From NCBI RefSeq assembly GCF_023343835.1, contig NC_064436.1, positions 70,733,545 through 70,797,544 of the forward strand: 64,000 nucleotides of DNA. Reading direction: 5' to 3'. This stretch comes from Lagopus muta (taxonomy: Eukaryota > Chordata > Aves > Galliformes > Phasianidae). The notes below the pieces were generated by a model. The model was given only the letters and a program-made list of their open reading frames with translations. It ran no database searches and was not told where the DNA came from. Shown piece after piece: positions 9,181-47,350 of the stretch. Within the stretch, counting starts at the first letter, position 1, and the number at the start of each line of letters is the position of its first letter. Position numbers and translations under genes: made by a program.

Positions 9181-9680
9181 NNNNNNNNNNNNNNNNNNNN
9201 NNNNNNNNNNNNNNNNNNNNNNNNNNNNNNNNNNNNNNNNNNNNNNNNNNNNNNNNNNNNNNNNNNNNNNNNNNNNNNNNNNNNNNNNNNNNNNNNNNNN
9301 NNNNNNNNNNNNNNNNNNNNNNNNNNNNNNNNNNNNNNNNNNNNNNNNNNNNNNNNNNNNNNNNNNNNNNNNNNNNNNNNNNNNNNNNNNNNNNNNNNNN
9401 NNNNNNNNNNNNNNNNNNNNNNNNNNNNNNNNNNNNNNNNNNNNNNNNNNNNNNNNNNNNNNNNNNNNNNNNNNNNNNNNNNNNNNNNNNNNNNNNNNNN
9501 NNNNNNNNNNNNNNNNNNNNNNNNNNNNNNNNNNNNNNNNNNNNNNNNNNNNNNNNNNNNNNNNNNNNNNNNNNNNNNNNNNNNNNNNNNNNNNNNNNNN
9601 NNNNNNNNNNNNNNNNNNNNNNNNNNNNNNNNNNNNNNNNNNNNNNNNNNNNNNNNNNNNNNNNNNNNNNNNNNNNNNNN
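9181..9680. other. Assembly gap (500 N)
   Basis: Exactly 500 undetermined bases, a round number that suggests a placeholder of unknown true size. The flanking satellites differ (GGATCC-type on the left, G-rich GGGTTTGGG-type on the right). The missing 5' exons of both NAGK (-) and EBF4 (+) should lie here. Confidence 0.99.
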
Positions 9681-10409: not shown

Positions 10410-13345
<2,936 letters not shown>

Positions 13346-16989: not shown

Positions 16990-17830
16990 GCACGGCGTGT
17001 CAGTGGATGTGGGATGTGGGCCATGGGACACAGCATGGGACATGGACACCACGAGGACCTGTGGGGTGCGGACACCATGGGGTATGGGACATCGTGGGAT
17101 ATGGGACATCATGGGATATGGGACATCGTGGGATATGGGACATCGTGGGTCATGGCCTAAAGGGACACGGCTGGACACCATGTCAGCCTGGATGCTGGTG
17201 GGACAGACCCAGGGGACGTGGATGGGCACCATGGAACGTGCACAGCTGGAGCACAATGGCACACGTGGACACCATGGGGCAGGGGGCATTGATGGGACAC
17301 AGGGACACCGATAGGGCATGGACACCATGGGACATGGGGAACCAGGGGGCACGGACCAAGGGGACACGGATGGACAGCATGGAATGGGCTCAGCCAGCAT
17401 AGAAAGGCACACATGGACACCATGGGACATGGGACACCAATGGGACACGGACCAGGGGACACGGATGGGCACCATGGAACGTGCACAGCTGGAGCACAAT
17501 GGCACACGTGGACACCAATGGGACACCAATGGGACACCAATGGGACACCAATGGACAGGGGACACGGCTGGACACGGACTGATGGCCTGAAGGACACAGC
17601 TGGACGCACACAGCTGGCTCACAGGGACACCCCGGGACATGGGACTGCTGGACACGGGGCACCAGTGGGACACGGAGCCAGGGGACACGGATGGACACCA
17701 CGGAACAGCTGGGGCACAATGGCACACGGGGACACCATGGGATACGGGACACCAACGGACACCACGGGACACCAGTGGCACAGGGGACACCAACGGCCCG
17801 AAGGGACACGCCGGACCCCCCGGACCGCAG
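16990..17830. repeat. GGACAC minisatellite (outer part of the left inverted arm)
   Basis: Irregular tandem units around GGGACACGGATGGACACCATGG. From about 17318 rightwards it is copied in reverse complement on the other side of the protamine locus (to about 26795). It lies immediately 3' of the left protamine gene. Confidence 0.85.
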
Positions 17831-17867
17831 ACAGAAGCACGGACACGCGCGCCCGGTGCCACGGCAC

Positions 17868-17873
17868 TTTATT
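17868..17873 (-). terminator. Poly(A) signal of left protamine gene
   Basis: TTTATT on + is AATAAA on -, 51 bases after the protamine stop. The right copy has the same signal at 26241-26246. Confidence 0.85.
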
Positions 17874-17924
17874 GGCGGAGCGGCAGCGCGGGGCCGCGGG
17901 TCGGGCGCGGCGTGGCGGCGGCTC

Positions 17925-18113
17925 TCAGTAGCGGCGGCGGCGGCGGCGGCGGCTCCCGTAGCGGCGGCGCCGTCTCCCCACGGAGCGGGCGGAGCGCCGG
18001 GCGCTCCCGTAGCGGCGGCGTCGGGAGCTGCGGCGGCTGCCGGAGCGGCGGCGGCGGCGGCGGCGGCGGCGGGGGCTGCTGCTGCGGGTCCTGCTGCGCC
18101 GGTAGCGGGCCAT
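17925..18113 (-). CDS. Protamine (galline-type), left copy
   Basis: A 62-residue, single-exon frame beginning MARYRRSRTRSSSPRRRR and ending RRYGSRRRRRRRY. Most residues are Arg, with Ser, Gly and Tyr and no Cys. This matches the avian protamine galline (chicken is 61 residues, same start, the same YGSARRS and YGSRRRR blocks), with several substitutions against the chicken sequence as I remember it. Protamines replace histones in the sperm nucleus and compact DNA. The start is fixed by the conserved MARYRRS and a GCC-ATG context; stop TGA at 17927-17925. A TATA box sits about 80 bases upstream and AATAAA 51 bases downstream, so the gene is compact and intronless, as reported for galline. A second copy lies inverted at 25991-26173; the chicken haploid genome is known to have two protamine genes. 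Confidence 0.95.
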   Translation of the reverse strand: MARYRRSRTRSSSPRRRRRRRRRSGSRRSSRRRRYGSARRSARSVGRRRRRYGSRRRRRRRY

Positions 18114-18193
18114 GCCGGGCTGCGGTGGGACGGCGCCGCGGCGGAGCCGAGCCGGGCGGCACCGGGAAGTGCCGCTCCGCGCCCCGAGCCGCT

Positions 18194-18199
18194 TTTATA
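18194..18199 (-). promoter_or_regulatory. TATA box of left protamine gene
   Basis: TATAAA on the minus strand, about 80 bases before the ATG. Just upstream are a CRE-like half site (CCGTCACAG near 18219-18227) and an AP-1-like GTGACTCGG (near 18235), expected for a spermatid gene driven by CREM-type factors. The right copy is identical. Confidence 0.8.
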
Positions 18200-18239
18200 G
18201 GCGCCCGCGGGCGCGGCCCTCTGTGACGGCCGGCCGAGT

Positions 18240-19040
18240 CACTGAGCAGAACGCGCCCGGTTCGGCTCATGTACGGCGGAATGGGGGGGGATCGAGGAGG
18301 GGGGGTCATGTATGGGGGTCCCGGCAGGGGCGGCGCCGTGGGCGCGGAGCGGGGGGACCGCGTGGCACCGCGGCGACGGGGATGGCGCGGGGCAGCGGCG
18401 ACGGCGCGATTACAAGGCGTCGAAAGGAGCCCGGCCCGCATCGTCGCTGTGCGAGCTCTCGATCGGCCCCTGATGCCCCGCCGCCCCCCACAGCCCCCCT
18501 ATGGTTCAGGCCCGCGGCCATTGCTGGAGACGGGGGACGCGCTGAGGCTCGGGCTGCGCTCAGCACCGAGGCTGGCATTGGCGCTCATTGGACCGCAGGT
18601 GAAATTGACCCCACGGCACCAGGATTGGGAGCTTCTCCCCAAATCCTTTGCGTTGCCCCAGGCGATTCTTTATTTCCCTGGGCACGGGACCCTCCTCCTC
18701 CCCCCCTCATTACTGCAGGCGCCGCCGTCTGCATCCACAGCAGAGCCCTCTCACGTCCTGCGCGGGGTGAGGAAGGAATGAAAAGGCTTCGGGCGATGCC
18801 GCAGCGATCCGGTGCGAACAGCGGGAACTGCAGCGAAAGAAAGCACGAGTCCATCGGAAAGGGAAAGGCTGCTAAAGAAATGCGTGCGGCATTAAATGAG
18901 CGCTCGTCAGCACAGCGGAACGGGAATCCTAACTCAGCAAACGGCGCTCGGTGGCCTTCAGTCCGTTCGTGGTGTGGATTTTCTCTTCGTTAAACACGGA
19001 TCGTGCGATCGTGCGCCCGGAGGGGGGGGGGAACGGGAGG
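18240..19040. other. Upstream flank of left protamine gene
   Basis: GC-rich unique DNA inside the left arm, mirrored at about 25070-25860. Open frames occur on both strands and are duplicated with the arm, but I see no family match, splice pattern or codon signal that would make any a gene. Confidence 0.5.
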
Positions 19041-19904
19041 GGGGCGGCAGGAGGAGCGTCCGCCGGTGCGCTGCGCTTCTCTCCGTCGGCACACGGGGGT
19101 GCGCAGCGGCTGCTATGAGGGACGGGACTTCGCTGCTCCGCCGGGATCTCGGCCGGATGGAAAATGGGGAATTCTGAGCGTTTCCAACACGGGGCGCTGG
19201 GCGGCACAGGGCGCACGGCACAGCGGGGTGGCACCTGGCACGGAGGTGGCACCTGGCACGGGGGGTGGCTCGTGGCACAGGGCGGCACCGCGCACCGGGT
19301 GACGGCACGGCGTGAGGGAGAACGCAGAGGACTTTTCGGAGGCCGGATCTCTGGTGGGAACGCTTTATTTCCCGATTGCAGCGGCGGGATCCGGCAAGCC
19401 GGAACGTACAACGTGGCTGCTTCGTATCCCCCGATGCTAATTACTCCGCCCCGCTCCTCGTTAATTGAGGACTCCGGGTTCACGATCTGACACTTGCTGT
19501 TGTATTTACAGCCACATTCCGTCTACCTTTAATCTTTAACACTTCGTAACCCGACCTCTTAATCTTGCCTGCCCCATCCGCCTCCAGAATCTTGGCAGCG
19601 GAGCTTCCCGCTGTCTGCCTGCCCGTCCCAGCTGGTATTTGAGGGCAGACCAGCGGGGTTTTTCACTCGCAAAGACACTTTTGTTGCTCACACGCGTAAT
19701 TTTGCGGGGCGATGACACAGGGCGACAAAACCACGGGGCTGTGGCACGGGGCGACGGCACAGCGGGGTCTGCGCGCACCCGCACTGCGTCCCTATCAGCA
19801 CTGGGGGCTGGAATGCATGGGAATGAGAAGGGCTCGGCTTCCCATCTGCGCACTGACCCCGTGTCACACGCTGTCCCCATCTGTGTCACACACTGTTCCG
19901 GTGT

Positions 19905-20378
19905 GAGCTGTTGGAGGAGCTGTTGGAGAGGGAGCAGAGGAGCCACAGGGATGATCGGGGGCTGCAGCACTGATTACAAAGGCAGGCTGAGGGAGCTGGG
20001 CTCGTTCAGCACGGAGAAGAGAAGCTGTGGGGTGAGCAAAGTGCAGCCTGCAGTGCCTGAAGGGAGCCTGCAGCCAGGAGGGGAGGCAGCTCTGTGCAAG
20101 GGGAGATGGCAGCAGGACGAGGGGAAACGGCTGGGAGCTGAGGGAGGGCAGATTGGGGTTGGATGTCAGGGGAAGTTGTGTGCTGTGAGAGCGGGGAGGG
20201 GCTGGAACAGCTGCAGAGAGGCTGTGATGCCCCGTCCATCCCTGGAGGTGTTGGAGGTTGGATGGGGCCCTGGGCAGCCTGGTGTAGCCTTGGATATGGA
20301 GGTTGGTGGCCCTGCATTGATGGGGGTTGGAGCTTCGTGATCCTTGAGGTCCCTTCCAACCCAATTCTGTGGCTCTGT
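19905..20378 (+). mobile_element. CR1 LINE fragment, 3' end, + strand
   Basis: Typical CR1 3' sequence: GGCTGAGGGAGCTGGGCTCG, AGGGGAGATGGCAGCAG-like block, GGTTGGATGGGGCCCTGGGC and CCTTCCAACCCAATTCTGTG. It covers the end of ORF2 and the 3'UTR and is 5'-truncated as usual. It sits in the spacer between the protamine arms, just upstream of the two-exon basic gene. Confidence 0.93.
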
Positions 20379-20454
20379 GCTGTCACACAGTGTCCCCGTC
20401 CCACAAACACTCGCACGCCGCTCGGCCCCGCGGTTCTCCGGCACGGTCGGGCCG

Positions 20455-20507
20455 TGACGCACCCCCAGGTTCCCGCGGCGCGCGGTGCGGTTGCCGGGCG
20501 CTGACGG
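20455..20507 (+). promoter_or_regulatory. Candidate promoter of the two-exon basic protein gene
   Basis: Two TGACG cores, TGACGC at 20455-20460 and TGACGG at 20502-20507, lie 60-120 bases before the ATG at 20573. They resemble CRE half sites. There is no TATA box. The assignment is inference from spacing. Confidence 0.35.
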
Positions 20508-20572
20508 CACAAGGTCCCCGAGGCGCCGCGTTCTGTGCCCGCCGCCGCCGTCCCTCCGCGCCCCGCAGCGCC

Positions 20573-20852
20573 ATGTGCGGCCGAGCCCCCCGCTCCCGCT
20601 TCCGCTCCCGTTCCCGGCCCCGCTCCCCGCCCCGGCGCCGTAAGGGCGAAACGCGGCGCGGTCGCCGTCGCGGGCGAAGCCGTATGATGAGGCGGCGCAG
20701 AGGTGCGGGCGCGGCCCGGGGGTCGGGGGGGGGGGCGCCGAGCCGCGAGCCCCGGTCCGAGCGCGGCGCTCCGCTTCTTCTCTCCGTCTCTTCTCTCCGT
20801 AGGCGTCCGCGTCTCGACGGTGTATTACTACCGGAGGGGCCGCTGCGGCTGA
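20573..20852 (+). CDS. Candidate two-exon protamine- or transition-protein-like gene
   Basis: Exon 1 (20573-20702) begins MCGRAPRSRFRSRSRPRS, continues with runs of Arg, and reaches RSRMMRRRR. The donor AGAG/GTGCGG starts a 100-nt intron (20703-20802) that ends in a long pyrimidine tract and CCGTAG. Exon 2 (20803-20852) adds VRVSTVYYYRRGRCG and stops at TGA 20850-20852. The spliced product has 59 residues, about 42% Arg, with RS repeats, two Cys and a YYY cluster. A variant signal CATAAA follows at 20894-20899. One short intron near the 3' end of a tiny Arg-rich frame is the structure of mammalian PRM1 and TNP1, whereas galline is intronless. The gene lies between the two inverted protamine copies, so a role in sperm chromatin is likely. 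Without splicing, the frame runs on into low-complexity sequence, which is less convincing. I know no named avian gene matching it. Confidence 0.6.
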
Positions 20853-21076
20853 GAGCTTTGAGCGCAACCCCGGGGACGCCGCGGCTCCGGTGCCATAAAT
20901 GCCATCTTCACCGCACCGCCCAGCTCCCGTCCTTTCTCGCGCCGTCCGTTCCCCTCCGCTCCCCCCCGGCCCCCGGCGCTGCCCGCACTGCTGCTCCCAG
21001 CCCCGCACGGGGGCACGCGGCCGCTGTCCCCCTGTGATACGTTGTGACAGCGTCCCTCTGCACGAGCACAGGGCGC

Positions 21077-21990
21077 ACGCACGTGGCACAGCGGGATGGC
21101 ACGGGGATGGCACGGGGATGGCACAGGATGGCACGGGGATGGCACGGGGATGGCACGGGGATGACACAGGGATGACACAGGGATGACACAGGGATGACAC
21201 AGGGATGACACAGGATGGCACAGGATGGCACGGGGATGGCACAGGGATGGTACAGAGATGGCACAGAGGCACAGGATGATGTCACAGGGATGACACAGGA
21301 TGGCACAGGGATGGCACAGGATGGCACGGGGATGGCACAGGATGACACAGGATGGCACAGGGATGACACGGGGATGGCACAGGATGGCACGGGGATGGCA
21401 CAGGGATGGCACAGGATGGCACGGGGATGGTACAGAGGTGGCACAGAGGCACAGGATGATGTCACAGGGATGGCACAGGGAGGTGGCACGTGGCACAAGC
21501 GGGTGGCACATGGCGTAGGGGGGTGGCACAGGGGGTGACACACGGATGGCACAGAGGCACAGGATGATGTCACAGAGTTGATACAGGGACGACACAGGGA
21601 TGGCACAGAGGCACAGGGATGGCACAGGGAGGTGGTACAGGGGATGGCACAGGGATGACACAGGATGGCAATGGGATGGCACGGGGATGACACAGGGATG
21701 ACACAGGATGGCACGGGGATGGCACAGGGATGGCACGGGGATGGTACAGGATGGCACGGGGATGGCACGGGGATGACACAGGATGGCACGGGGATGGCAC
21801 AGGGATGACACAGGATGGCACGGGGATGGCACAGGGATGGCACTGGGATGGCACAGGATGGCACAGGGATGGCACAGGGATGGCACAGGGATGGCACGGG
21901 GATGGTACGTGGCACAGGGTGATGTCACAGGGTTGATACAGGGACTGGCACAGCGATGGCACACGGATGGCACAGCGATGGCACACGGAG
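21077..21990. repeat. GGCACAGGGAT minisatellite
   Basis: About 0.9 kb of short units GGCACAGGGAT, GGCACAGGAT and GACACAGGGAT, with an embedded longer block holding GGCACAGAGGCACAGGATGA that recurs three times. It ends just before the promoter at 22029. Confidence 0.92.
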
Positions 21991-22028
21991 CGCACGGCGC
22001 ACACCACGCACACAGCGGAGGCGCAGCG

Positions 22029-22124
22029 CCAATCGCGCAACCAGCCGCGGGGGGCGGGGCTTAATAGTGCTCGACCAATGAGAAGCTGGGACGTGGGTCA
22101 CGTGTTTCGAACGGGCTATATAAG
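22029..22124 (+). promoter_or_regulatory. Strong TATA/CCAAT promoter with no recognised gene
   Basis: Within 100 bases: CCAAT at 22029-22033, a GC box GGGGCGGGGC at 22051-22060, CCAAT at 22075-22079, an E-box CACGTG at 22099-22104 and TATATAAG at 22117-22124. Spacing fits a start near 22147. Downstream are potential donors (CACCG/GTCAGC near 22255, CCCCG/GTAACC near 22300) and an acceptor (CCTTCCCAG ending 22490) but no coding sequence that I can support. It may drive a noncoding or germline transcript. Confidence 0.6.
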
Positions 22125-22149
22125 GGTGCGCGGCTCCGCCGAAGCCCAC

Positions 22150-24215
22150 TCGCCCCGTCGGGGCGGTTGGGTGCGTGGCGGTGGGCGGCTGCCTTGCGGG
22201 GCTACCGGAGCCCGGCGGACGGGAAGCCTTGGATGACTCGCCTCTTCGTCCCACCGGTCAGCGTCCTCCTTCTCACCGCCCCGGTGCTGTCGTGACCCCG
22301 GTAACCACGGAAGAGGAGCCGGTGTGATCGGAGCTTTTTGTGCTGCACCCTGAGCTCAGCTCCGACATCGGTGCCATCCCTGTAAGAGGGACGTCGGCTG
22401 AAGGAGGATCTCGGGCAGTGCCATAAGTGTGTCCTGAATGTCCCCTCACCCGAAATGATCCCTGCTGATGGTTCTGTGTGCCTTCCCAGGGCCGTTCCCG
22501 TGGTGCTGGGGATGTGAGCGCCCCCCTTAGCAGCAGCGAGCAGAGAGGCTTGGAGAAGGGAACGCAGCCCTTGGTGGGGGATCCTACTGGGTTAGCAGAA
22601 CGGTTTGATCAGTTTGGGGACCCCGGTGCTCGTTCCAGGGGTAAGGTGAGGTCTATTGGAATGTGCTGCTTAATGGGAAACAAAAAGGGAGTAGGAGAGA
22701 ATGCATCCACCAGGACCTGGGGTTGTGCTGGCAGGTGAGATAGGACCACCGACAGCCCAGATGGGGCAGAAATAATGGTGGAGGTGGGGGCATATGAAGG
22801 ACTTATGAGAAATAGCGATCCTGGGGTGGAGGGAGCAGCGCTCTGCTCTCAGAACCTTCCTGCATTTGAATGGGAAGATCCAGAAATGGCAAAAGCAGCC
22901 ATAGGGGTGGGATGCCTGGCCCCAAGGTTTGCTGATCGCCTTTATTTGCTTGGAGGGATGCATCTGGATGGCTGCTGGGGTGAAGGTGGGGACAGGAGGG
23001 GCCTTGGGGTGGAAGGGAAACGTTCACACATCATCTGGGGTGAATGGGAGTGATGTGAAGGTGCTGCAGTGATTGGGGGAGCAGAGGGGAAGGCAGAAGT
23101 GGGGGCTGCCCCATAAGTGGAGATCTGAGCCTTGGGAGCTGTGGGGTTTGGGTGTGCGTGGGAATGGAGCCTGGTGTAAACAGGATGGAGCTGGGATGGA
23201 TTGAGGGGAAGAATCTCAGGGGGGGAACAGGAGAAGGAATGCAAGCAGTCACAGGTAAAGCGAGTGCTGTACCAGGACAGAAGGCACAGATTGGCTGCTG
23301 GGTAATTAATGGGTCTGCCTGTTAATAGGAGCTTTGTGGGCTGATGCCGTTAGACCAGCACAGGTATTTCTTTCCAGACCTCCTGCGAAGGAGAGCACTG
23401 AGCTGGCATTTCTGGATGCCATCTGAGGACAAAGAAATGGGGATGGCAGAACTGAGAGCCGGGGGTCCCCAGGGCCTCCGGGGGGCTGTAGGGTCTGTGA
23501 TGGGAAAAGCATCCATTGGGCCTGGGGAAATAAGCAACGAGTTGGGGTCTGTGGGTGCAGGGGTGGGAACTGCCACAATTCGTGGTGATCTGAAGGAACC
23601 CTGGGGCACAAAGGCTGACAGATGAGCTGGGGACAAATGGGCCCCAAATGTGGTTAAAGGTGGGGGTCGGGCACCTCCCAGCCGTGAGGATGGGGGTCCA
23701 TCACCCCAATTCCAGCGTATTGGGAGCAGGGCTGTGTGGGGAAACACAGTGACCACCTGCATGCTGCTGGGTTTGGTTCACAGGGGAAGCAGGCAGTGGA
23801 GTCCCCACGTCCCTCCTTGGGCTCTTTTTGCTTGGAGGGATGCATCTGGATGGCTGCTGGGATGGAGGTGAGGACAGGAGAGGCCTTGGGGTGGAAGGGA
23901 AACGTTGTTCACCTCATCCAGGGTGAACGGGGCTGTGTTGGGCTGCGTGCTTTCACCTGCGTTTTGTCAGCATCCATGACTGAGAAACTGCAGGAAGGGC
24001 AGCTGCTGCCAGCCCTGTGCTGCCGCATTGCTCTGATGCTGCCGTGCGACCGGAGGCGGCGTTTGAAAATGGCTTCCATCAGCTGCACGTTGCACCAGGG
24101 AAAGGCTGGGCTGTGAGCCCCCAGTGGGGCCATCGCATGAATTCCCAGCTGTCAGGTAAAGCTGAGGTGCTGCCCAGTGCTGGTGTAGATGAGATTCGAG
24201 CGTTCCTGGCTCCTA
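22150..24215. other. Unassigned spacer DNA downstream of the orphan promoter
   Basis: About 2 kb of lower-GC DNA without a minisatellite. It contains a direct repeat of about 105 bp (22945-23052 and 23828-23936; shared core GGAGGGATGCATCTGGATGG and GGTGGAAGGGAAACGTT). No gene or known mobile element is recognised. If the promoter at 22.1 kb is active, this would be its transcript. Confidence 0.45.
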
Positions 24216-24224
24216 CAGCACCGA

Positions 24225-24705
24225 AATTGATGACTTAGATGAAGGGATTGAGGGCACCCTGAGTCGGTTTGCAGATGGCACCAAGTTGGGAGGTGGTGTG
24301 GATCTGCCTGAGGGCAGGGAGGCCCTGCAGAGGGATTTAGACAGGCTGGATCGCTGGGCTGAGATGAATGGGATGAGGTTCAACAAGGCCAAGTGTGGGG
24401 TTCTGCACTTTGGCCACAACAACCCCATGCAGCACAAAGGCTTGGGGATGAGAGGTTGGATGATTGTGAAGAGGAAAGGGAGCTGGGGCTGTTGGTTGGT
24501 GCTGGGCTGAACAGGAGCCCACAGGGCGCCCAGGTGGCCAAGAGGACCAACAGCATCCTGGCCTGCATGAGGAATGGCCAGCAGAGCAGGGAGGGGAGCA
24601 TCCCCTGCACTCAGCACTGGGGAGGCCGCACCTCGAGGGCTGGGTTCAGTTTTGGGCCCCTCACTACAAGAAAGACATTGAGGGCCTGGAACGTGTCCAG
24701 TGTCA
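24225..24705 (+). mobile_element. CR1 LINE fragment, ORF2 C-terminal part, + strand
   Basis: Reads a decayed CR1 reverse-transcriptase tail: [10 protein letters not shown]-like start, [36 protein letters not shown], then [11 protein letters not shown] and [13 protein letters not shown] in shifted frames. It is truncated at both ends; similarity fades after about 24705. Confidence 0.9.
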
Positions 24706-25904
24706 GAGAAGCAGTGGCTTCATGTGCTGCACAGCCCAAGGGAGCTGGAGGAATGGAAAGGTGCAACAGGCTTATTGCAAAGGGGGCATTGATCGTGTCT
24801 GTATGGAAACCAGAGCCCCCTTTGGTGCCCGCTCCAGCAATGCATCCCCAGGAACCAGGCTGAGGGGTGCAGAACTGCAGGGGACGAGTCCTGGTGTGGG
24901 TGGAGGTGCCGACTGCCCCCTTTTCCAGACCCAATGGCCGTCAGGAGGGCTGAGCTTCTGCTCTCTGTGTTGCTTTCTGAGCTTAATCTCAATGAACGCC
25001 CTTCAGGTGCGCCCCTGTCCTGGTGTAGGGTGCTGGCTTTGCCTTCCAGGGCAGCACCGTGTGCCTCTGACTCCCGTTCCCCCCCCCCCCCCCGGTCGCA
25101 CGATCCGTGTTTAACGAAGAGAAAATCCACACCACGAACGGACTGAAGGCCACCGAGCGCCGTTTGCTGAGTTAGGATTCCCGTTCCGCTGTGCTGACGA
25201 GCGCTCATTTAATGCCGCACGCATTTCTTTAGCAGCCTTTCCCTTTCCGATGGACTCGTGCTTTCTTTCGCTGCAGTTCCCGCTGTTCGCACCGGATCGC
25301 TGCGGCATCGCCCGAAGCCTTTTCATTCCTTCCTCACCCCGCGCAGGACGTGAGAGGGCTCTGCTGTGGATGCAGACGGCGGCGCCTGCAGTAATGAGGG
25401 GGGGAGGAGGAGGGTCCCGTGCCCAGGGAAATAAAGAATCGCCTGGGGCAACGCAAAGGATTTGGGGAGAAGCTCCCAATCCTGGTGCCGTGGGGTCAAT
25501 TTCACCTGCGGTCCAATGAGCGCCAATGCCAGCCTCGGTGCTGAGCGCAGCCCGAGCCTCAGCGCGTCCCCCGTCTCCAGCAATGGCCGCGGGCCTGAAC
25601 CATAGGGGGGCTGTGGGGGGCGGCGGGGCATCAGGGGCCGATCGAGAGCTCGCACAGCGACGATGCGGGCCGGGCTCCTTTCGACGCCTTGTAATCGCGC
25701 CGTCGCCGCTGCCCCGCGCCATCCCCGTCGCCGCGGTGCCACGCGGTCCCCCCGCTCCGCGCCCACGGCGCCGCCCCTGCCGGGACCCCCATACATGACC
25801 CCCCCTCCTCGATCCCCCCCCATTCCGCCGTACATGAGCCGAACCGGGCGCGTTCTGCTCAGTGACTCGGCCGGCCGTCACAGAGGGCCGCGCCCGCGGG
25901 CGCC

Positions 25905-25910
25905 TATAAA
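25905..25910 (+). promoter_or_regulatory. TATA box of right protamine gene
   Basis: TATAAA 81 bases before the start codon, with the same CRE-like CCGTCACAG (25876-25884) and GTGACTCGG (25862-25870) upstream as in the left copy. Confidence 0.8.
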
Positions 25911-25990
25911 AGCGGCTCGGGGCGCGGAGCGGCACTTCCCGGTGCCGCCCGGCTCGGCTCCGCCGCGGCGCCGTCCCACCGCAGCCCGGC

Positions 25991-26173
25991 ATGGCCCGCT
26001 ACCGGCGCAGCAGGACCCGCAGCAGCAGCCCCCGCCGCCGCCGCCGCCGCCGCCGCCGCTCCGGCAGCCGCCGCAGCTCCCGACGCCGCCGCTACGGGAG
26101 CGCCCGGCGCTCCGCCCGCTCCGTGGGGAGACGGCGCCGCCGCTACGGGAGCCGCCGCCGCCGCCGCTACTGA
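25991..26173 (+). CDS. Protamine (galline-type), right copy
   Basis: A 60-residue, intronless frame, identical to the left copy except that the C-terminal Arg run is two residues shorter (YGSRRRRRY). A 16-base direct duplication spans the stop codon, so a second CTACTGA follows 16 bases later. TATA box at 25905-25910 and AATAAA at 26241-26246 are retained, so it should be expressed. Its orientation is opposite to the left copy: the promoters of the two genes face each other across the spacer. Confidence 0.95.
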   Translation: MARYRRSRTRSSSPRRRRRRRRRSGSRRSSRRRRYGSARRSARSVGRRRRRYGSRRRRRY

Positions 26174-26240
26174 GAGCCGCCGCTACTGAGAGCCGCCGCC
26201 ACGCCGCGCCCGACCCGCGGCCCCGCGCTGCCGCTCCGCC

Positions 26241-26246
26241 AATAAA
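26241..26246 (+). terminator. Poly(A) signal of right protamine gene
   Basis: Canonical AATAAA 67 bases after the stop codon; the counterpart of 17868-17873 on the left. Confidence 0.85.
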
Positions 26247-26259
26247 GTGCCGTGGCACC

Positions 26260-27060
26260 GGGCGCGCGTGTCCGTGCTTCTGTCTGCGGTCCGGGGGGTC
26301 CGGCGTGTCCCTTCGGGCCGTTGGTGTCCCCTGTGCCACTGGTGTCCCGTGGTGCCCGTTGGTGTCCCGTATCCCATGGTGTCCCCGTGTGCCATTGTGC
26401 CCCAGCTGTTCCGTGGTGTCCATCCGTGTCCCCTGGCTCCGTGTCCCACTGGTGCCCCGTGTCCAGCAGTCCCATGTCCCGGGGTGTCCCTGTGAGCCAG
26501 CTGTGTGCGTCCAGCTGTGTCCTTCAGGCCATCAGTCCGTGTCCAGCCGTGTCCCCTGTCCATTGGTGTCCCATTGGTGTCCCATTGGTGTCCCATTGGT
26601 GTCCACGTGTGCCATTGTGCTCCAGCTGTGCACGTTCCATGGTGCCCATCTGTGTCCCCTGGTCCGTGTCCCATTGGTGTCCCATGTCCCATGGTGTCCA
26701 TGTGTGCCTTTCTATGCTGGCTGAGCCCATTCCATGCTGTCCATCCGTGTCCCCTTGGTCCGTGTCCCCTGGTTCCCTATGTCCCACGGTGTCCACACCC
26801 CACTGATGTCCCTTATCACTGTGCACCATCCATGTGTGCCCCGTGGTGTCCATCCATGTGCAATGGCTCCGTGTCCCATGCTGTCCACGTCCATCTCTCT
26901 CACATCCCAGGCTGTTGCTGCACACCGGCTGCGTGCGTCCCATGGTGTCCAGCTGTGTCCCTTCAGCCCACGTCCCACGGTGCCCCAGGTCCCGCAGTGT
27001 CCTTGTCCCACAGTGCCTGTGTTCCATGGTGCCACCGTGCAGGTGTCCCACTGGTGGAAA
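26260..27060. repeat. GTGTCC minisatellite 3' of right protamine gene
   Basis: Reverse-complement counterpart of the left GGACAC repeat up to about 26795, then a more diverged continuation (CCATGGTGTCCATCCATGTG-like units) not shared with the left side. Unique GC-rich DNA without a visible gene follows to about 27630. Confidence 0.85.
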
Positions 27061-39650: not shown

Positions 39651-40455
39651 TTTAAAGGTGCTGAGCCCTGTTACGCACGGCGGCCCCGCAGCTCAGCACT
39701 CCCGCAGCTGGGCAAAGCCTCCGGGGGGGCGGACGTGGGGCTGGGGGCTCGCAGCTCCCCGTGGGTTGAATTCCTCCCGCCGCCGAGCATCGCTCGCCGC
39801 TGCCCGGCCCTGCGCACCGGTAAGGGAAGCGGAGGGGTGCGGGATCCGGCGGCGGAGCGGCTGCTGGAGGGGGGAAGGGAAAGGAGAGCGGGGGGCGGTG
39901 CGGGACGGCGCTCGGGCTGCGCGGAGCCACGCACACGTCGTGCGGGGCGCACCGGGGGGCGGCGGAGCTGAGGGAAGCCCGGGTCCGGCTGCGGGGTCTC
40001 CGGTAGGGCAGCGCTGGGCCCCGGCGGGACCCCGGGGCTGCGGCATCCCCGGGCTCGGCCCCGTCGGCGGCTCCCGACCTCGGCACGGGCTCTGAATGCC
40101 GGGCGCTGAAGCGGCTCGGCCCCCCCGCGAGCGCGGGCACAAAGCCCAGCAGTTCCTCGTTGCTTGCAGCGCGTGCTGCCTCTCCCGTGCCCCTTTGCCC
40201 CCGTTGCAATCCTTCGGTGCCCGCTTCCCTCCCCGTGCCCCTTTGCCCCCGCCGTCACCGCCAGCTCCTGTCTGGGCAGCGCTGCTTCCCCCCTCGTCCC
40301 ACCCTGCAGCCCTCAGGGCTTTGGGCACCCCGGGCCCTGCTGCCTCCTCCCGTCTCTGTTCTCCAGCCTCATCTGCTTCTATCTCATCCATTACCGCCTC
40401 GAGCTGCCCGGCTGCCCATAGGGCCTTCCCTGTTCCTTTAGCGCTGAGAAATAAA
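39651..40455 (+). pseudogene. Truncated NAT8-like copy 1 (exon 1 plus last 18 codons)
   Basis: Retains the TTTAAAGG promoter element (39651), noncoding exon 1 with donor CACCG/GTAAGG (39819/39820), intron sequence, then only the end of the coding region: LICFYLIHYRLELPGCP and TAG at 40419-40421, compared with LISFQIFYYRLELPGRP in gene B. AATAAA follows at 40450-40455. About 1 kb, including nearly the whole GNAT domain, is deleted. By chance the deletion leaves an acceptor-like TGTTCTCCAG directly before the remnant, so a short spliced noncoding RNA could still be made. Confidence 0.85.
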
Positions 40456-40496
40456 CAGAGACCATGGGAAGGGTGTGATGAGTGTGCCATGGATGT

Positions 40497-41625
40497 ACAC
40501 AGAATCACAGCATCACAGAATGGCCGGGGCTGGAAGGGACCCCAAGGATCACGAAGCTCCAACCCCCTGCTGCATGCAGGGCCACCAACCTCCACGTTTA
40601 ATGCTGAACCAGGCTGCCCAGGGCCCCATCCAACCTGGCCTTGAACACCTCCAAGGACGGGGCATCACAGCCTCTCTGGCAGCTGTTCCAGCCCCTCACA
40701 GCTCTCTGGGTAAAGAATTTCCCCCTGATGTCCGACCTCAATCTCCCCTCCCTCAACTTCAAGCCATTTCCCCTCATCCTGCAGATATCAACCCTTTCAC
40801 AGAGTTGATTCCCCTCCCCTCTGCAGGCTCCCTTTAGGTATTGAAAGGCTGCACTGAGGTCACCCTGCAGCTTCTCTCCTCCATGCTGAACAGCCCAGCT
40901 CCCTCAGCCTGTCCTCACAGTGGAGCTGCTGCAGCCCCCTGCTCATCTTTGTGGCCCCTCTCCAACAGCCCCCTGTCTTTCTTGTACTGTGGGCTCCAAA
41001 CTTGGACGCAGTGCTGCAGATGGGGCCTCCCAAGAGCAGAGCAGAGGGGGACGATCACCTCCCTGTCCCTGCTGGCCGCCCCTCTGCTGATGGAGCCCAG
41101 GATCCCATTTGCTTTCCGAGCTGCAGGAGCTGCACTGCTGCCTCATAGGAAGTTTTTCATCCATCAGGACCCCCAGGTCCTTCTCTGCAGGGCTGCTTTG
41201 AAGCTCCGCTCCATCCAGCCTGTATGGATGCCTGGGATTCCTCTGGCCCAAGTGCAAAACTCTGCACTTTGCCGTGTTGAACCTCACCAGGTTCACCTGG
41301 TTTCACCTTTCCAGCCTCTCCAGGTCCCTCTGCATGGCATCCCTTCCTTCAACCGTGTCGACTGCACCGCTCAGCTGGGTGTCATCAGCAAATTGCTGAG
41401 GGTGCACTCAATTCCTACATTGCTGTCATTGATAAAGATGTTAAAGAGCACCAACACAGAGCCCTGGGGGACGCCGCTCGTTACCGGCCTCCACCTGGAC
41501 ACAGAGCCATTGCTGAGCACCCTCTGTCTGCGGCCTTTCAACCAGTTTCTTATCCATCGAGTGGTTCCACCCATCAAATCCACATCCCTCCAATTTGGAG
41601 ATGAGGATGTGGTGGGAGACGTGTG
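40497..41625 (-). mobile_element. CR1 LINE fragment, - strand (copy 1)
   Basis: About 1.1 kb of CR1 in antisense: 3' end at ATCACAGAATGGCCGGGGCT, then 3'UTR, and ORF2 reverse-transcriptase stretches [53 protein letters not shown] and RFNTAKCRVLHLGQRN. It is 5'-truncated, with frame breaks between blocks. It is inserted just 3' of the truncated NAT8-like remnant and shared by both tandem copies. Confidence 0.95.
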
Positions 41626-41838
41626 TCCTGGCTGTGCCCATGTGTGGCTTCGTGCCTCCATGTGGCTCATGCCCATGCCGTGAGCTCAGCCCAGCACGGC
41701 TCCTCCGTAGCCCGGCATGGGGTCACCGCACTGCAGCCGCACACTGTCGGTGCTGGGGGGCTTTTGGGGGCCTGCTGGACCTCTTGCTGTGCCCCCACCA
41801 GCACTGCTGTGCTGTGTCAGTGCAGTGTGGGCAGGGGA

Positions 41839-42025
41839 AGGCGGTTGGTGTGCGGGGCAGGAGGACATGGGGCAGTGGCTGGAGGTGGATGAACCTCACC
41901 GACATCCTCGGGGTCATCAGGCAGGGGCTGCAGCCCATCTGGATGCAGGGCAGTGGGTGCGGAGGCTAGAAGGGAGTCAGGCAGGTTTGCAAAGGCACCA
42001 TTTGATTGCAGGATGATGTGCTGGG
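41839..42025 (+). pseudogene. CPXM1 exon fragment (copy 1)
   Basis: GGCGGTTGGTGTGCGGGGCA onward to about 41946 aligns with most of CPXM1 exon 4 (33312-33419): it reads [17 protein letters not shown], then loses frame but keeps CATCCTCGGGGTCATCA and CCCATCTGGATG. A short match to the end of exon 6 (GTGCTGGGCTGTG) lies at about 42018. It is a broken piece of a second CPXM1-like gene, or captured exons. Confidence 0.8.
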
Positions 42026-42649
42026 CTGTGACCCACGGGATCCTCATCCCATGTGGCTGAGCTGTGTGCACGGTGCCCCACGGGGATCCGCATCCCGTTT
42101 GGATGAGCCGTGCTGGTGAACCCCTATGGGGACACGGGGACCCCTGTGCCATGAGGCTGAGCTGTGTGGACCGAGACCCACGGGGATCCTCATCCCATGT
42201 GGGTGAGCCATACGGACGTCCCATGGCACCCTCATCCCATGTAGCTGAGCCCTGTGGGCGATGCCCCACGAGGACCCTCATACCACACGGCTGAGCCTCG
42301 CTGGTGACACCCTATGGGGACACGGGGACCCTTGTGCTGCGTGGTGCCAGGCTGGGGACGTGCCCCCCACCCCCACCCCCAGCCCTGCTGCTTCTCAGTC
42401 CCGGGGGGGGGGGCTCAACCTCCCTGGGGAGCCTCAAAAACCCAACGCCCCCCAGCTGAGCTGGGACCCACACAGGGACCCGGGCCGTGTCCCCTCGCTG
42501 AGCTGGGGTCGGATTCGTGCCTGATCCCCTTAACGCTGCGATGATCAAAGAACATCGGAGCGCTGCCCGCGGGGTCAGTGTCTGCTTACCCATCTCCCCA
42601 CCCCGCCTTCCCCGCTGCTCCTTCGGCAGTGACGGCCTTTGCTCGTCGG

Positions 42650-43560
42650 TTTAAAGGTGCTGAGCCCTGTTACGCACGGCGAACCCGCAGCGCAGCACTC
42701 CCGCAGCTGGGCAAAGCCACCGGGGGGGCGGACGTGGGGCTGGGGGCTCGCAGCTCCCCGTGGGCCGAACTCCCCCCGCCGCCCGAGCATCGCTCGCTGC
42801 GCTGCGCTCGACCCCGGTCCCCACGGGGGCGCTGCGGGATCCCGGCTGCTCGCGGGGCTGCGGGCCCGGCTCGGTGCTGCGGGACCGCCGCTGCCCGTCC
42901 GCCGCTGCCCGGCCCTGCGCACCGGTAAGGGAAGCGGAGGGGTGCGGGATCCGGCGGCGGAGCGGCTGCTGGAGGGGGGAAGGGAAAGGAGAGCGGGGGG
43001 CGGTGCGGGACGGCGCTCGGGCTGCGCGGAGCCACGCACACGTCGTGCGGGGCGCACCGGGGGGCGGCGGAGCTGAGGGAAGCCCGGGTCCGGCTGCGGG
43101 GTCTCCGGTAGGGCAGCGCTGGGCCCCGGCGGGACCCCGGGGCTGCGGCATCCCCGGGCTCGGCCCCGTCGGCGGCTCCCGACCTCGGCACGGGCTCTGA
43201 ATGCCGGGCGCTGAAGCGGCTCGGCCCCCCCGCGAGCGCGGGCACAAAGCCCAGCAGTTCCTCGTTGCTTGCAGCGCGTGCTGCCTCTCCCGTGCCCCTT
43301 TGCCCCCGTTGCAATCCTTCGGTGCCCGCTTCCCTCCCCGTGCCCCTTTGCCCCCGCCGTCACCGCCAGCTCCTGTCTGGGCAGCGCTGCTTCCCCCCTC
43401 GTCCCACCCTGCAGCCCTCAGGGCTTTGGGCACCCCGGGCCCTGCTGCCTCCTCCCGTCTCTGTTCTCCAGCCTCATCTGCTTCTATCTCATCCATTACC
43501 GCCTCGAGCTGCCCGGCTGCCCATAGGGCCTTCCCTGTTCCTTTAGCGCTGAGAAATAAA
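42650..43560 (+). pseudogene. Truncated NAT8-like copy 2
   Basis: Same organisation as copy 1: TTTAAAGG at 42650, exon 1 donor at 42924/42925, remnant LICFYLIHYRLELPGCP with TAG at 43524-43526, AATAAA at 43555-43560. Exon 1 is about 106 bases longer than in copy 1. The extra block is also present in the exon 1 of gene B, so copy 1 probably lost it. Confidence 0.85.
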
Positions 43561-43601
43561 CAGAGACCATGGGAAGGGTGTGATGAGTGTGCCATGGATG
43601 T

Positions 43602-44730
43602 ACACAGAATCACAGCATCACAGAATGGCCGGGGCTGGAAGGGACCCCAAGGATCACGAAGCTCCAACCCCCTGCTGCATGCAGGGCCACCAACCTCCAC
43701 GTTTAATGCTGAACCAGGCTGCCCAGGGCCCCATCCAACCTGGCCTTGAACACCTCCAAGGACGGGGCATCACAGCCTCTCTGGCAGCTGTTCCAGCCCC
43801 TCACAGCTCTCTGGGTAAAGAATTTCCCCCTGATGTCCGACCTCAATCTCCCCTCCCTCAACTTCAAGCCATTTCCCCTCATCCTGCAGATATCAACCCT
43901 TTCACAGAGTTGATTCCCCTCCCCTCTGCAGGCTCCCTTTAGGTATTGAAAGGCTGCACTGAGGTCACCCTGCAGCTTCTCTCCTCCATGCTGAACAGCC
44001 CAGCTCCCTCAGCCTGTCCTCACAGTGGAGCTGCTGCAGCCCCCTGCTCATCTTTGTGGCCCCTCTCCAACAGCCCCCTGTCTTTCTTGTACTGTGGGCT
44101 CCAAACTTGGACGCAGTGCTGCAGATGGGGCCTCCCAAGAGCAGAGCAGAGGGGGACGATCACCTCCCTGTCCCTGCTGGCCGCCCCTCTGCTGATGGAG
44201 CCCAGGATCCCATTTGCTTTCCGAGCTGCAGGAGCTGCACTGCTGCCTCATAGCAAGTTTTTCATCCATCAGGACCCCCAGGTCCTTCTCTGCAGGGCTG
44301 CTTTGAAGCTCCGCTCCATCCAGCCTGTATGGATGCCTGGGATTCCTCTGGCCCAAGTGCAAAACTCTGCACTTTGCCGTGTTGAACCTCACCAGGTTCA
44401 CCTGGTTTCACCTTTCCAGCCTCTCCAGGTCCCTCTGCATGGCATCCCTTCCTTCAACCGTGTCGACTGCACCGCTCAGCTGGGTGTCATCAGCAAATTG
44501 CTGAGGGTGCACTCAATTCCTACATTGCTGTCATTGATAAAGATGTTAAAGAGCACCAACACAGAGCCCTGGGGGACGCCGCTCGTTACCGGCCTCCACC
44601 TGGACACAGAGCCATTGCTGAGCACCCTCTGTCTGCGGCCTTTCAACCAGTTTCTTATCCATCGAGTGGTTCCACCCATCAAATCCACATCCCTCCAATT
44701 TGGAGATGAGGATGTGGTGGGAGACGTGTG
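43602..44730 (-). mobile_element. CR1 LINE fragment, - strand (copy 2)
   Basis: The 3105-bp-offset twin of the CR1 at 40497-41625, with only isolated base differences (one changes P to A in the [10 protein letters not shown] segment). It was therefore inserted before the tandem duplication. Confidence 0.95.
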
Positions 44731-44943
44731 TCCTGGCTGTGCCCATGTGTGGCTTCGTGCCTCCATGTGGCTCATGCCCACGCCGTGAGCTCAGCCCAGC
44801 ACGGCTCCTCCGTAGCCCGGCATGGGGTCACCGCACTGCAGCCGCACACTGTCGGTGCTGGGGGGCTTTTGGGGGCCTGCTGGACCTCTTGCTGTGCCCC
44901 CACCAGCACTGCTGTGCTGTGTCAGTGCAGTGTGGGCAGGGGA

Positions 44944-45130
44944 AGGCGGTTGGTGTGCGGGGCAGGAGGACATGGGGCAGTGGCTGGAGGTGGATGAACC
45001 TCACCGACATCCTCGGGGTCATCAGGCAGGGGCTGCAGCCCATCTGGATGCAGGGCAGTGGGTGCGGAGGCTAGAAGGGAGTCAGGCAGGTTTGCAAAGG
45101 CACCATTTGATTGCAGGATGATGTGCTGGG
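44944..45130 (+). pseudogene. CPXM1 exon fragment (copy 2)
   Basis: Exact-offset duplicate of 41839-42025; same frame loss after [17 protein letters not shown]. Confidence 0.8.
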
Positions 45131-46454: not shown

Positions 46455-46660
46455 GCTTAGAGAGGTGTTGGGTGCCCCATCCCTGGTGACATTCAGGTCA
46501 GGCTGGAGTGGCTCTGAGCGCCTGATGGAGCTGCGGGTGGCCCTGTTCTTTGGGAGGGGGTTGAACCATCCTCTGGCTTCTGTGAAGGTCCCTTCCAGCT
46601 CAAACCACAATGCGACTCTATGAAGGTTCCCTCCAACCCCAACCATTCTCTGCTTCTGAC
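46455..46660 (+). mobile_element. CR1 LINE 3' end, + strand
   Basis: AGAGGTGTTGGGTGCCCCAT, GTCAGGCTGGAGTGGCTCTG and GGTCCCTTCCAGCTCAAACC are CR1 3'UTR sequence. A second partial 3' end (GAAGGTTCCCTCCAACCCCA) follows from 46621. The gene B acceptor (ending 46666) lies immediately after. Confidence 0.8.
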
Positions 46661-46678
46661 CTGCAGGCCCCAGTGCCC

Positions 46679-47350
46679 ATGGCTCCGTACCGCATCCGGC
46701 TGTACCGCGACGAGGACTACGCTGCCGTGCGCTCCCTGTTTGCCCATGGCATCATCGAGCACGCCCCGGCCATCTACAGGCATATGCTGCGCTCCACGCG
46801 GGTGCAGCTGGGGCTGCTGGCCCTGTTCACGGCCGTGCGTGCCGCAGCTGGCAGCTGGCTGCTGGCACTGGCAGCCGTGGCGCTGGTGCTGGCGGCCGCC
46901 TGGCCCGTGATGCGCTCCTTCAGCACGTCCTACGTGCAGGAGGCGCTGATCACTGATCTGTGCGACATCGACAGCAGCTACATGCGGGCGCCCGACTCCT
47001 GCTTCTGGGTGGTGGAGGCCGACGGGGCGGTGGTGGGAATGGTGGCTGTGGCCCCGCCACAGGACCCGGCTCAGCGCGGGGAGGCCCTGGAGCTGAAGCG
47101 GATGTCGGTCAGCAAGAATCACCGCGGCCACGGCATCTCCAAGGCGCTGTGCGGGGAGGTGCTGCGCTTCGCCCAGGCGCGGGGCTACAGAGCTGTGACG
47201 CTGTACACCTCCATAGTGCAGGTGGTGGCTCAGCGGCTGTACGAGAAGCAGGGCTTCAGGAAGGTGGGTGCCAGCAGCCCCTCGCTGCTTGCCAGCCTGA
47301 TCTCCTTCCAGATCTTCTATTACCGCCTCGAGCTGCCCGGCCGCCCATAG
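46679..47350 (+). CDS. NAT8-family N-acetyltransferase, gene B
   Basis: A 223-residue single-exon frame starting MAPYRIRLYRDEDYAAVRSL and ending YYRLELPGRP. It has the same plan as gene A: RIRLYRDEDY N-terminus, hydrophobic membrane segment (about 38-78), then a GNAT domain with SVSKNHRGHGISKAL (acetyl-CoA loop) and RLYEKQGFRKVG. The start is chosen at 46679, 12 bases after the acceptor CTGACCTGCAG; an in-frame ATG at 46610 lies in the intron inside CR1-derived sequence. AATAAA at 47379-47384. It is the full-length version of the two gutted copies upstream, whose surviving 18 codons match its C-terminus. Likely an ER membrane acetyltransferase; the substrate cannot be told. Confidence 0.92.
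   Translation: MAPYRIRLYRDEDYAAVRSLFAHGIIEHAPAIYRHMLRSTRVQLGLLALFTAVRAAAGSWLLALAAVALVLAAAWPVMRSFSTSYVQEALITDLCDIDSSYMRAPDSCFWVVEADGAVVGMVAVAPPQDPAQRGEALELKRMSVSKNHRGHGISKALCGEVLRFAQARGYRAVTLYTSIVQVVAQRLYEKQGFRKVGASSPSLLASLISFQIFYYRLELPGRP

Follow-up and report, generated by a model that had tools for sequence, protein, structure and literature searches.

A candidate two-exon gene for an arginine-rich, protamine-like protein between the inverted galline copies of Lagopus muta

Results

The window, by which we mean the whole 64,000-nucleotide stretch of Lagopus muta DNA analysed here, contains two copies of a small arginine-rich gene, which we take to be the avian protamine galline. One copy is two codons longer than the other, and each lies in one arm of an inverted duplication whose arms are 98–99% complementary (Table 1). 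The candidate, at 20573–20852, lies in the 6-kb spacer between these arms, just as the original prediction had placed it between inverted protamine copies. At 26158–26189, the 3' end of the + strand galline copy is partly repeated directly past its stop codon (GCCGCCGCTACTGA recurs).

Within the spacer, the candidate occupies a CpG-rich island (observed/expected CpG of 1.14–1.15 at 20501–21000) that is bounded on the left by the 3' end of what is presumably a CR1-like repeat, reaching to about 20385, and on the right by an 11-bp minisatellite at 21084–21997. A second CpG-rich, promoter-like stretch of the spacer at 22040–22300 carries CCAAT, CACGTG and CTATATAAGG on the + strand; it is followed by no evident long open reading frame and perhaps gives rise to a noncoding transcript. 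A search of 19000–26500 against Rfam returned no match, and an ARAGORN scan of the window for tRNAs was negative.

The wider surroundings agree with the predicted position between EBF4 and CPXM1, as judged from sequence motifs. Pieces that we take to be EBF-type C termini lie to the left at 10867 and 12437, and presumed CPXM1-like exons lie to the right at about 33–36 kb; a separate search with 21 EBF motifs found no EBF. A run of 500 N at 9181–9680, presumably an assembly gap, is located to the left of the EBF-like exons. On the other side, 40448–44785 contains a direct repeat with an offset of 3105 (40448–41680 and 43553–44785, 99.8% identical), and a CPXM1-like fragment is present twice, at 41870 and again at 44975. 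Downstream of the CPXM1-like exons, the open reading frame at 46586–47347 presumably encodes a NAT8-type N-acetyltransferase, and exons that we assume to be VPS16-like and IDH3B-like follow at about 49–62 kb.

Table 1. Coordinates of the candidate gene and of neighbouring features in the window.
Feature	Position	Strand	Description
Left arm, inverted duplication	17301..19032		holds galline copy 1; two adjoining pieces
Galline-like protamine copy 1	17925..18113	-	single open frame, 62 aa; TATAAAA upstream, AATAAA downstream
CpG-rich island with candidate	20401..21050	+	between CR1-like 3' end and minisatellite
CRE half-sites TGACG (20455, 20502) and RFX half-site GTTGCC (20490)	20455..20506	+	upstream of candidate
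Predicted coding exon 1	20573..20702	+	ATG to donor, 130 nt, 43 codons + 1 base
Predicted intron	20703..20802	+	100 nt, phase 1, GTGCGG...CTCCGTAG, 79% GC
Predicted coding exon 2	20803..20852	+	50 nt with TGA stop
CATAAA	20894..20899	+	41 nt past stop; only CATAAA on the window + strand
Right arm, inverted duplication	25072..26813		holds galline copy 2
Galline-like protamine copy 2	25991..26173	+	single open frame, 60 aa; TATAAAA upstream, AATAAA downstream

The coordinates and reading frame of the gene model are as originally described: two frames joined over a 100-nt GT–AG intron encode 59 residues with about 42% Arg. The second exon completes the codon of Gly44 and then encodes residues 45–59 (VRVSTVYYYRRGRCG), and the joined exons give the product MCGRAPRSRFRSRSRPRSPPRRRKGETRRGRRRGRSRMMRRRRGVRVSTVYYYRRGRCG. 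This predicted protein starts with MCGRAPRS and contains 25 Arg in 59 residues (42%), together with 6 Ser, 3 Tyr, 2 Cys and a single Lys (2%). Its phase-1 intron would split a Gly codon directly after RRRR, in codon 44 of 59. The 222 nt preceding the start codon contain no ATG. Counting back from the ATG, the frame of exon 1 continues for 75 codons without a stop, into the CR1-like repeat. The unspliced frame is also open to 21037 (154 aa), so that splicing is not needed to avoid a stop; the splice is predicted because the Arg-rich run ceases at the donor and because the splice sites are good. Splice-site matrices placed the donor within the best 3.0% of the 5857 GTs, and the acceptor within the best 0.09% of the 8104 AGs, that occur on the two strands of the window, and each is the best site locally. 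The long pyrimidine tract that had been noted before the AG is confirmed, with pyrimidines at 27 of the 30 positions from −33 through −4. No match to the branch-point consensus yTnAy was found in the 100-nt intron, in which the A's apart from the final AG are only three, all in CGAGC contexts. A weaker acceptor (score 7.3) is located at 20567–20568, directly before the ATG.

The arginine content of exon 1 exceeds what the local composition yields. Codons 2–43 contain 21 Arg in 42, compared with 9.0 ± 2.5 in 20,000 dinucleotide shuffles, one of which reached 21 and none of which both reached 21 and stayed open. The other two forward frames of exon 1 encode 3 and 4 Arg and both contain stops; one reverse-strand frame over the exon lacks stops, and 19 of its 41 codons encode Arg. 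A (CCCGCT)n-like repeat lies within exon 1 at 20589–20627. Enrichment is moderate in codons 2–20, which lie on this repeat (7 of 19 Arg, P = 0.011), and strong in codons 21–43, which are mostly outside it (14 of 23, P = 0.00015). Exon 2 alone is weak, at least 5 Arg in 16 open codons being obtained in 14% of random draws; a sum of Arg, Tyr and Cys of at least 9 occurred in 0.2% of draws, by a measure that was picked after the peptide had been seen. Six kinds of Arg codon are used (CGC 11, CGG 5, CGT 4, CGA 2, AGG 2 and AGA 1), which we count in favour of a gene because a pure repeat would not give them. Varied codons are nevertheless no mark of a true protamine, since CGC makes up 29 of the 35 Arg codons of galline in this window.

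We then scanned both strands for two-exon chains of the form ATG–GT–AG–stop encoding 45–80 aa. The candidate is the only chain in the window, on either strand, with at least 36% Arg. Across 264 kb, comprising the window and 20 stretches of 10 kb, four chains had at least 20% Arg, and the next best after the candidate had 24%. In 83.05 Mb of simulated CpG-island-like DNA, generated by a third-order Markov model that was trained on 32,750 CpG-rich bases and does not reproduce simple repeats, 21 chains reached at least 30% Arg and none reached 36%. The 421 bp around the candidate have one full match in the 1.03-Gb genome, at their own locus on contig C7, in a search that skipped simple repeats and scored only the best candidates. 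The sole other hit, a weak match on contig C59, is a GC-rich repeat; it reads RSRPRSRSRPRPR, rich in RS and RP like part of exon 1.

These data bear on the most serious rival to the gene reading, a chance or mutational open reading frame that is Arg-rich by virtue of (CCCGCT)n in a CpG island, with coincidental splice sites, the island being regulatory DNA of the protamine cluster. Such an origin would fit the repeat tract in exon 1 and the similar GC-rich repeat on C59, as well as the lack of a branch point, the weakness of exon 2 and the open Arg-rich antisense frame. We consider it unlikely, though the least so of the alternatives, because Arg enrichment is stronger in that half of exon 1 which lies largely beyond the repeat, the acceptor is among the best in the window, the next best chain in 264 kb has 24% Arg, and the simulation, within its limit regarding simple repeats, produced no chain of comparable Arg content.

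Neither a TATA box nor AATAAA is present near the candidate, unlike at the galline copies. The CATAAA past the stop codon, the closest poly(A)-like sequence, is presumably a variant poly(A) signal. Upstream lie what we take to be CRE and RFX half-sites, which are suggestive only because the + strand of the window holds 26 TGACG and 10 GTTGCC. A decayed gene, formerly encoding a second sperm nuclear basic protein and now untranscribed in this lineage, would account for the missing TATA box, AATAAA and branch-point consensus and for the low-complexity surroundings; against this, the reading frame is intact, as are its start and stop codons and the two splice sites, and we regard decay as quite improbable. 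Least probable is that exon 1 belongs to another transcript, as an internal exon or as an unspliced 154-aa open reading frame, since for all that the frame is open 75 codons upstream and through the intron to 21037, and the weaker acceptor directly precedes the ATG, Arg density drops at the donor and any use of CATAAA would terminate the transcript ahead of the 154-aa stop.

Searches of the candidate against a protein database, Pfam, PDB sequences and viral contigs returned no match. Galline, used as a positive control against the protein database, Pfam and the viral contigs, was likewise unmatched, so the nulls from these three collections are not evidence of absence. In particular, Pfam assigned 0 families to the candidate and 0 to both galline copies, showing that it is insensitive to such sequences. 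The TP1 profile PF02079 matched neither the candidate nor anything in the whole genome, and it matched none of 14 control genomes either.

Discussion

We propose that 20573–20852 is a gene of two exons, so far unannotated, whose 59-residue product is a protamine-like sperm nuclear basic protein, and we assign this reading a probability of about 0.6. In its favour we count the Arg enrichment, the splice sites, the uniqueness in the genome and the CpG island, as well as the CATAAA, the absence of an upstream ATG and the position between the protamine copies. Against it we count the missing branch point, TATA box and AATAAA, the (CCCGCT)n repeat in exon 1 with its counterpart on C59, the open Arg-rich reverse frame, the weakness of exon 2 alone and the exon 1 frame that is open upstream into the CR1-like repeat. 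The original prediction is partly supported: the model of an intron-containing basic-protein gene beside galline stands well above chance, while its further labels, a transition protein or the progenitor of galline, are not supported.

From the sequence, the gene model, its statistics and its location we infer how such a protein might be expressed and act. Transcription would take place in spermatids, starting from the CpG island in which the candidate lies, and the transcript would be spliced once. Its Arg clusters could neutralise the DNA backbone and thereby bind and condense DNA as galline replaces histones. The N-terminal RS-rich segment RSRFRSRSRPRSPPRRR may be phosphorylated by SR-type kinases, which would delay tight DNA binding. 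Two Cys placed at the ends of the protein and a YYY run could permit cross-links that are impossible for the Cys-free galline. Tyr–Tyr and Cys–Tyr cross-links have been proposed in mammalian protamines, according to PMC7126135; carrying this chemistry over to the candidate is our own extension by analogy.

Should the candidate truly be expressed in testis, the packing of bird sperm DNA would involve more than the one protamine that birds are credited with. According to PMC9258737, protamines replace histones in a single direct step in some birds, and the paper raises the question of whether analogous proteins 'have not yet been identified'. The present gene model, a second and spliced one for a basic protein in the protamine locus, offers a concrete candidate here. 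Among the open-licence papers that our searches listed, no title or abstract opening names a second or intron-containing bird protamine or a bird transition protein. More tentatively, and with odds that we put below even, galliforms may possess a third sperm nuclear basic protein gene that is spliced, bears Cys and Tyr and lies outside the galline family. Its product might serve as the missing avian intermediate, or as a partner, when protamines take the place of histones, and its Cys- and Tyr-bearing ends might cross-link chromatin that is thought to be disulfide-free.

In our comparison with known sperm nuclear proteins, the candidate was not assigned to the TP1, galline or mammalian P1 family, and composition may account for whatever likeness it has to galline, PRM1 and TNP1. 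TNP1 has a short second exon, and the gene model of the candidate shares this feature as well as a similar length. Against human TNP1 the candidate scored 46, compared with 38.0 ± 6.8 in composition shuffles, a score reached by 56 of 500. Transition proteins contain about 19% Lys and 21% Arg, according to PMC9258737. The 59 residues of the candidate include one Lys (2%) and 25 Arg (42%), so that it is rejected as TP1 on composition, and the proposal of a transition protein falls with it.

Mammalian protamines sit between SOCS1 and RMI2. In the present genome SOCS1 (identified by motif) and RMI2 (identified by Pfam) are about 25 kb apart on contig C18 (C18:6385960-6411292), and the 39 kb read here, which cover this interval up to its last 292 bases, contain no one- or two-exon open reading frame with at least 28% Arg. 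The candidate is located on C7 and not in this interval as mammalian PRM1 is; its neighbours are EBF- and CPXM1-like. The coding region of PRM1 is interrupted by a single short intron near its 3' end; in the candidate, the 100 nt predicted as an intron would interrupt codon 44 of 59, a similar placement if spliced out. The two have in common that they are tiny and Arg-rich with Cys and Tyr. A MARYR-type N-terminus is a trait of PRM1 that the candidate does not have, and human PRM1 contains 47% Arg, compared with 42% in the candidate. The range of 50–70% Arg reported for protamine P1 in PMC8812575 is therefore a soft cut. Alignment scores against PRM1 did not exceed those of shuffles, at 54 versus 54.5 for human PRM1 (reached by 265 of 500) and 51 versus 56.7 for bull PRM1 (392 of 500). 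As a mammalian P1 the candidate fails on its N-terminus, on its location and, softly, on its Arg content.

Each galline copy in this window consists of one open frame flanked by a TATA box and AATAAA; galline lacks Cys and has 56% Arg in its 62-aa copy, whereas the candidate has a two-exon model, two Cys and 42% Arg. The similarity score between the two is 72, compared with 72.3 in composition shuffles (reached by 235 of 500), and no DNA match connects 20385–21050 with the galline loci, the short matches lying elsewhere in the window. On the two-exon model, the Cys, the shuffle-level similarity and the missing DNA match, we do not count the candidate as a galline, and on the last two of these findings we reject a common origin with galline and find no support for the idea that it was the progenitor of galline. 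What the two proteins do have in common is their small size, their abundance of Arg, their RS motifs, their Tyr residues and the locus at which both are encoded.
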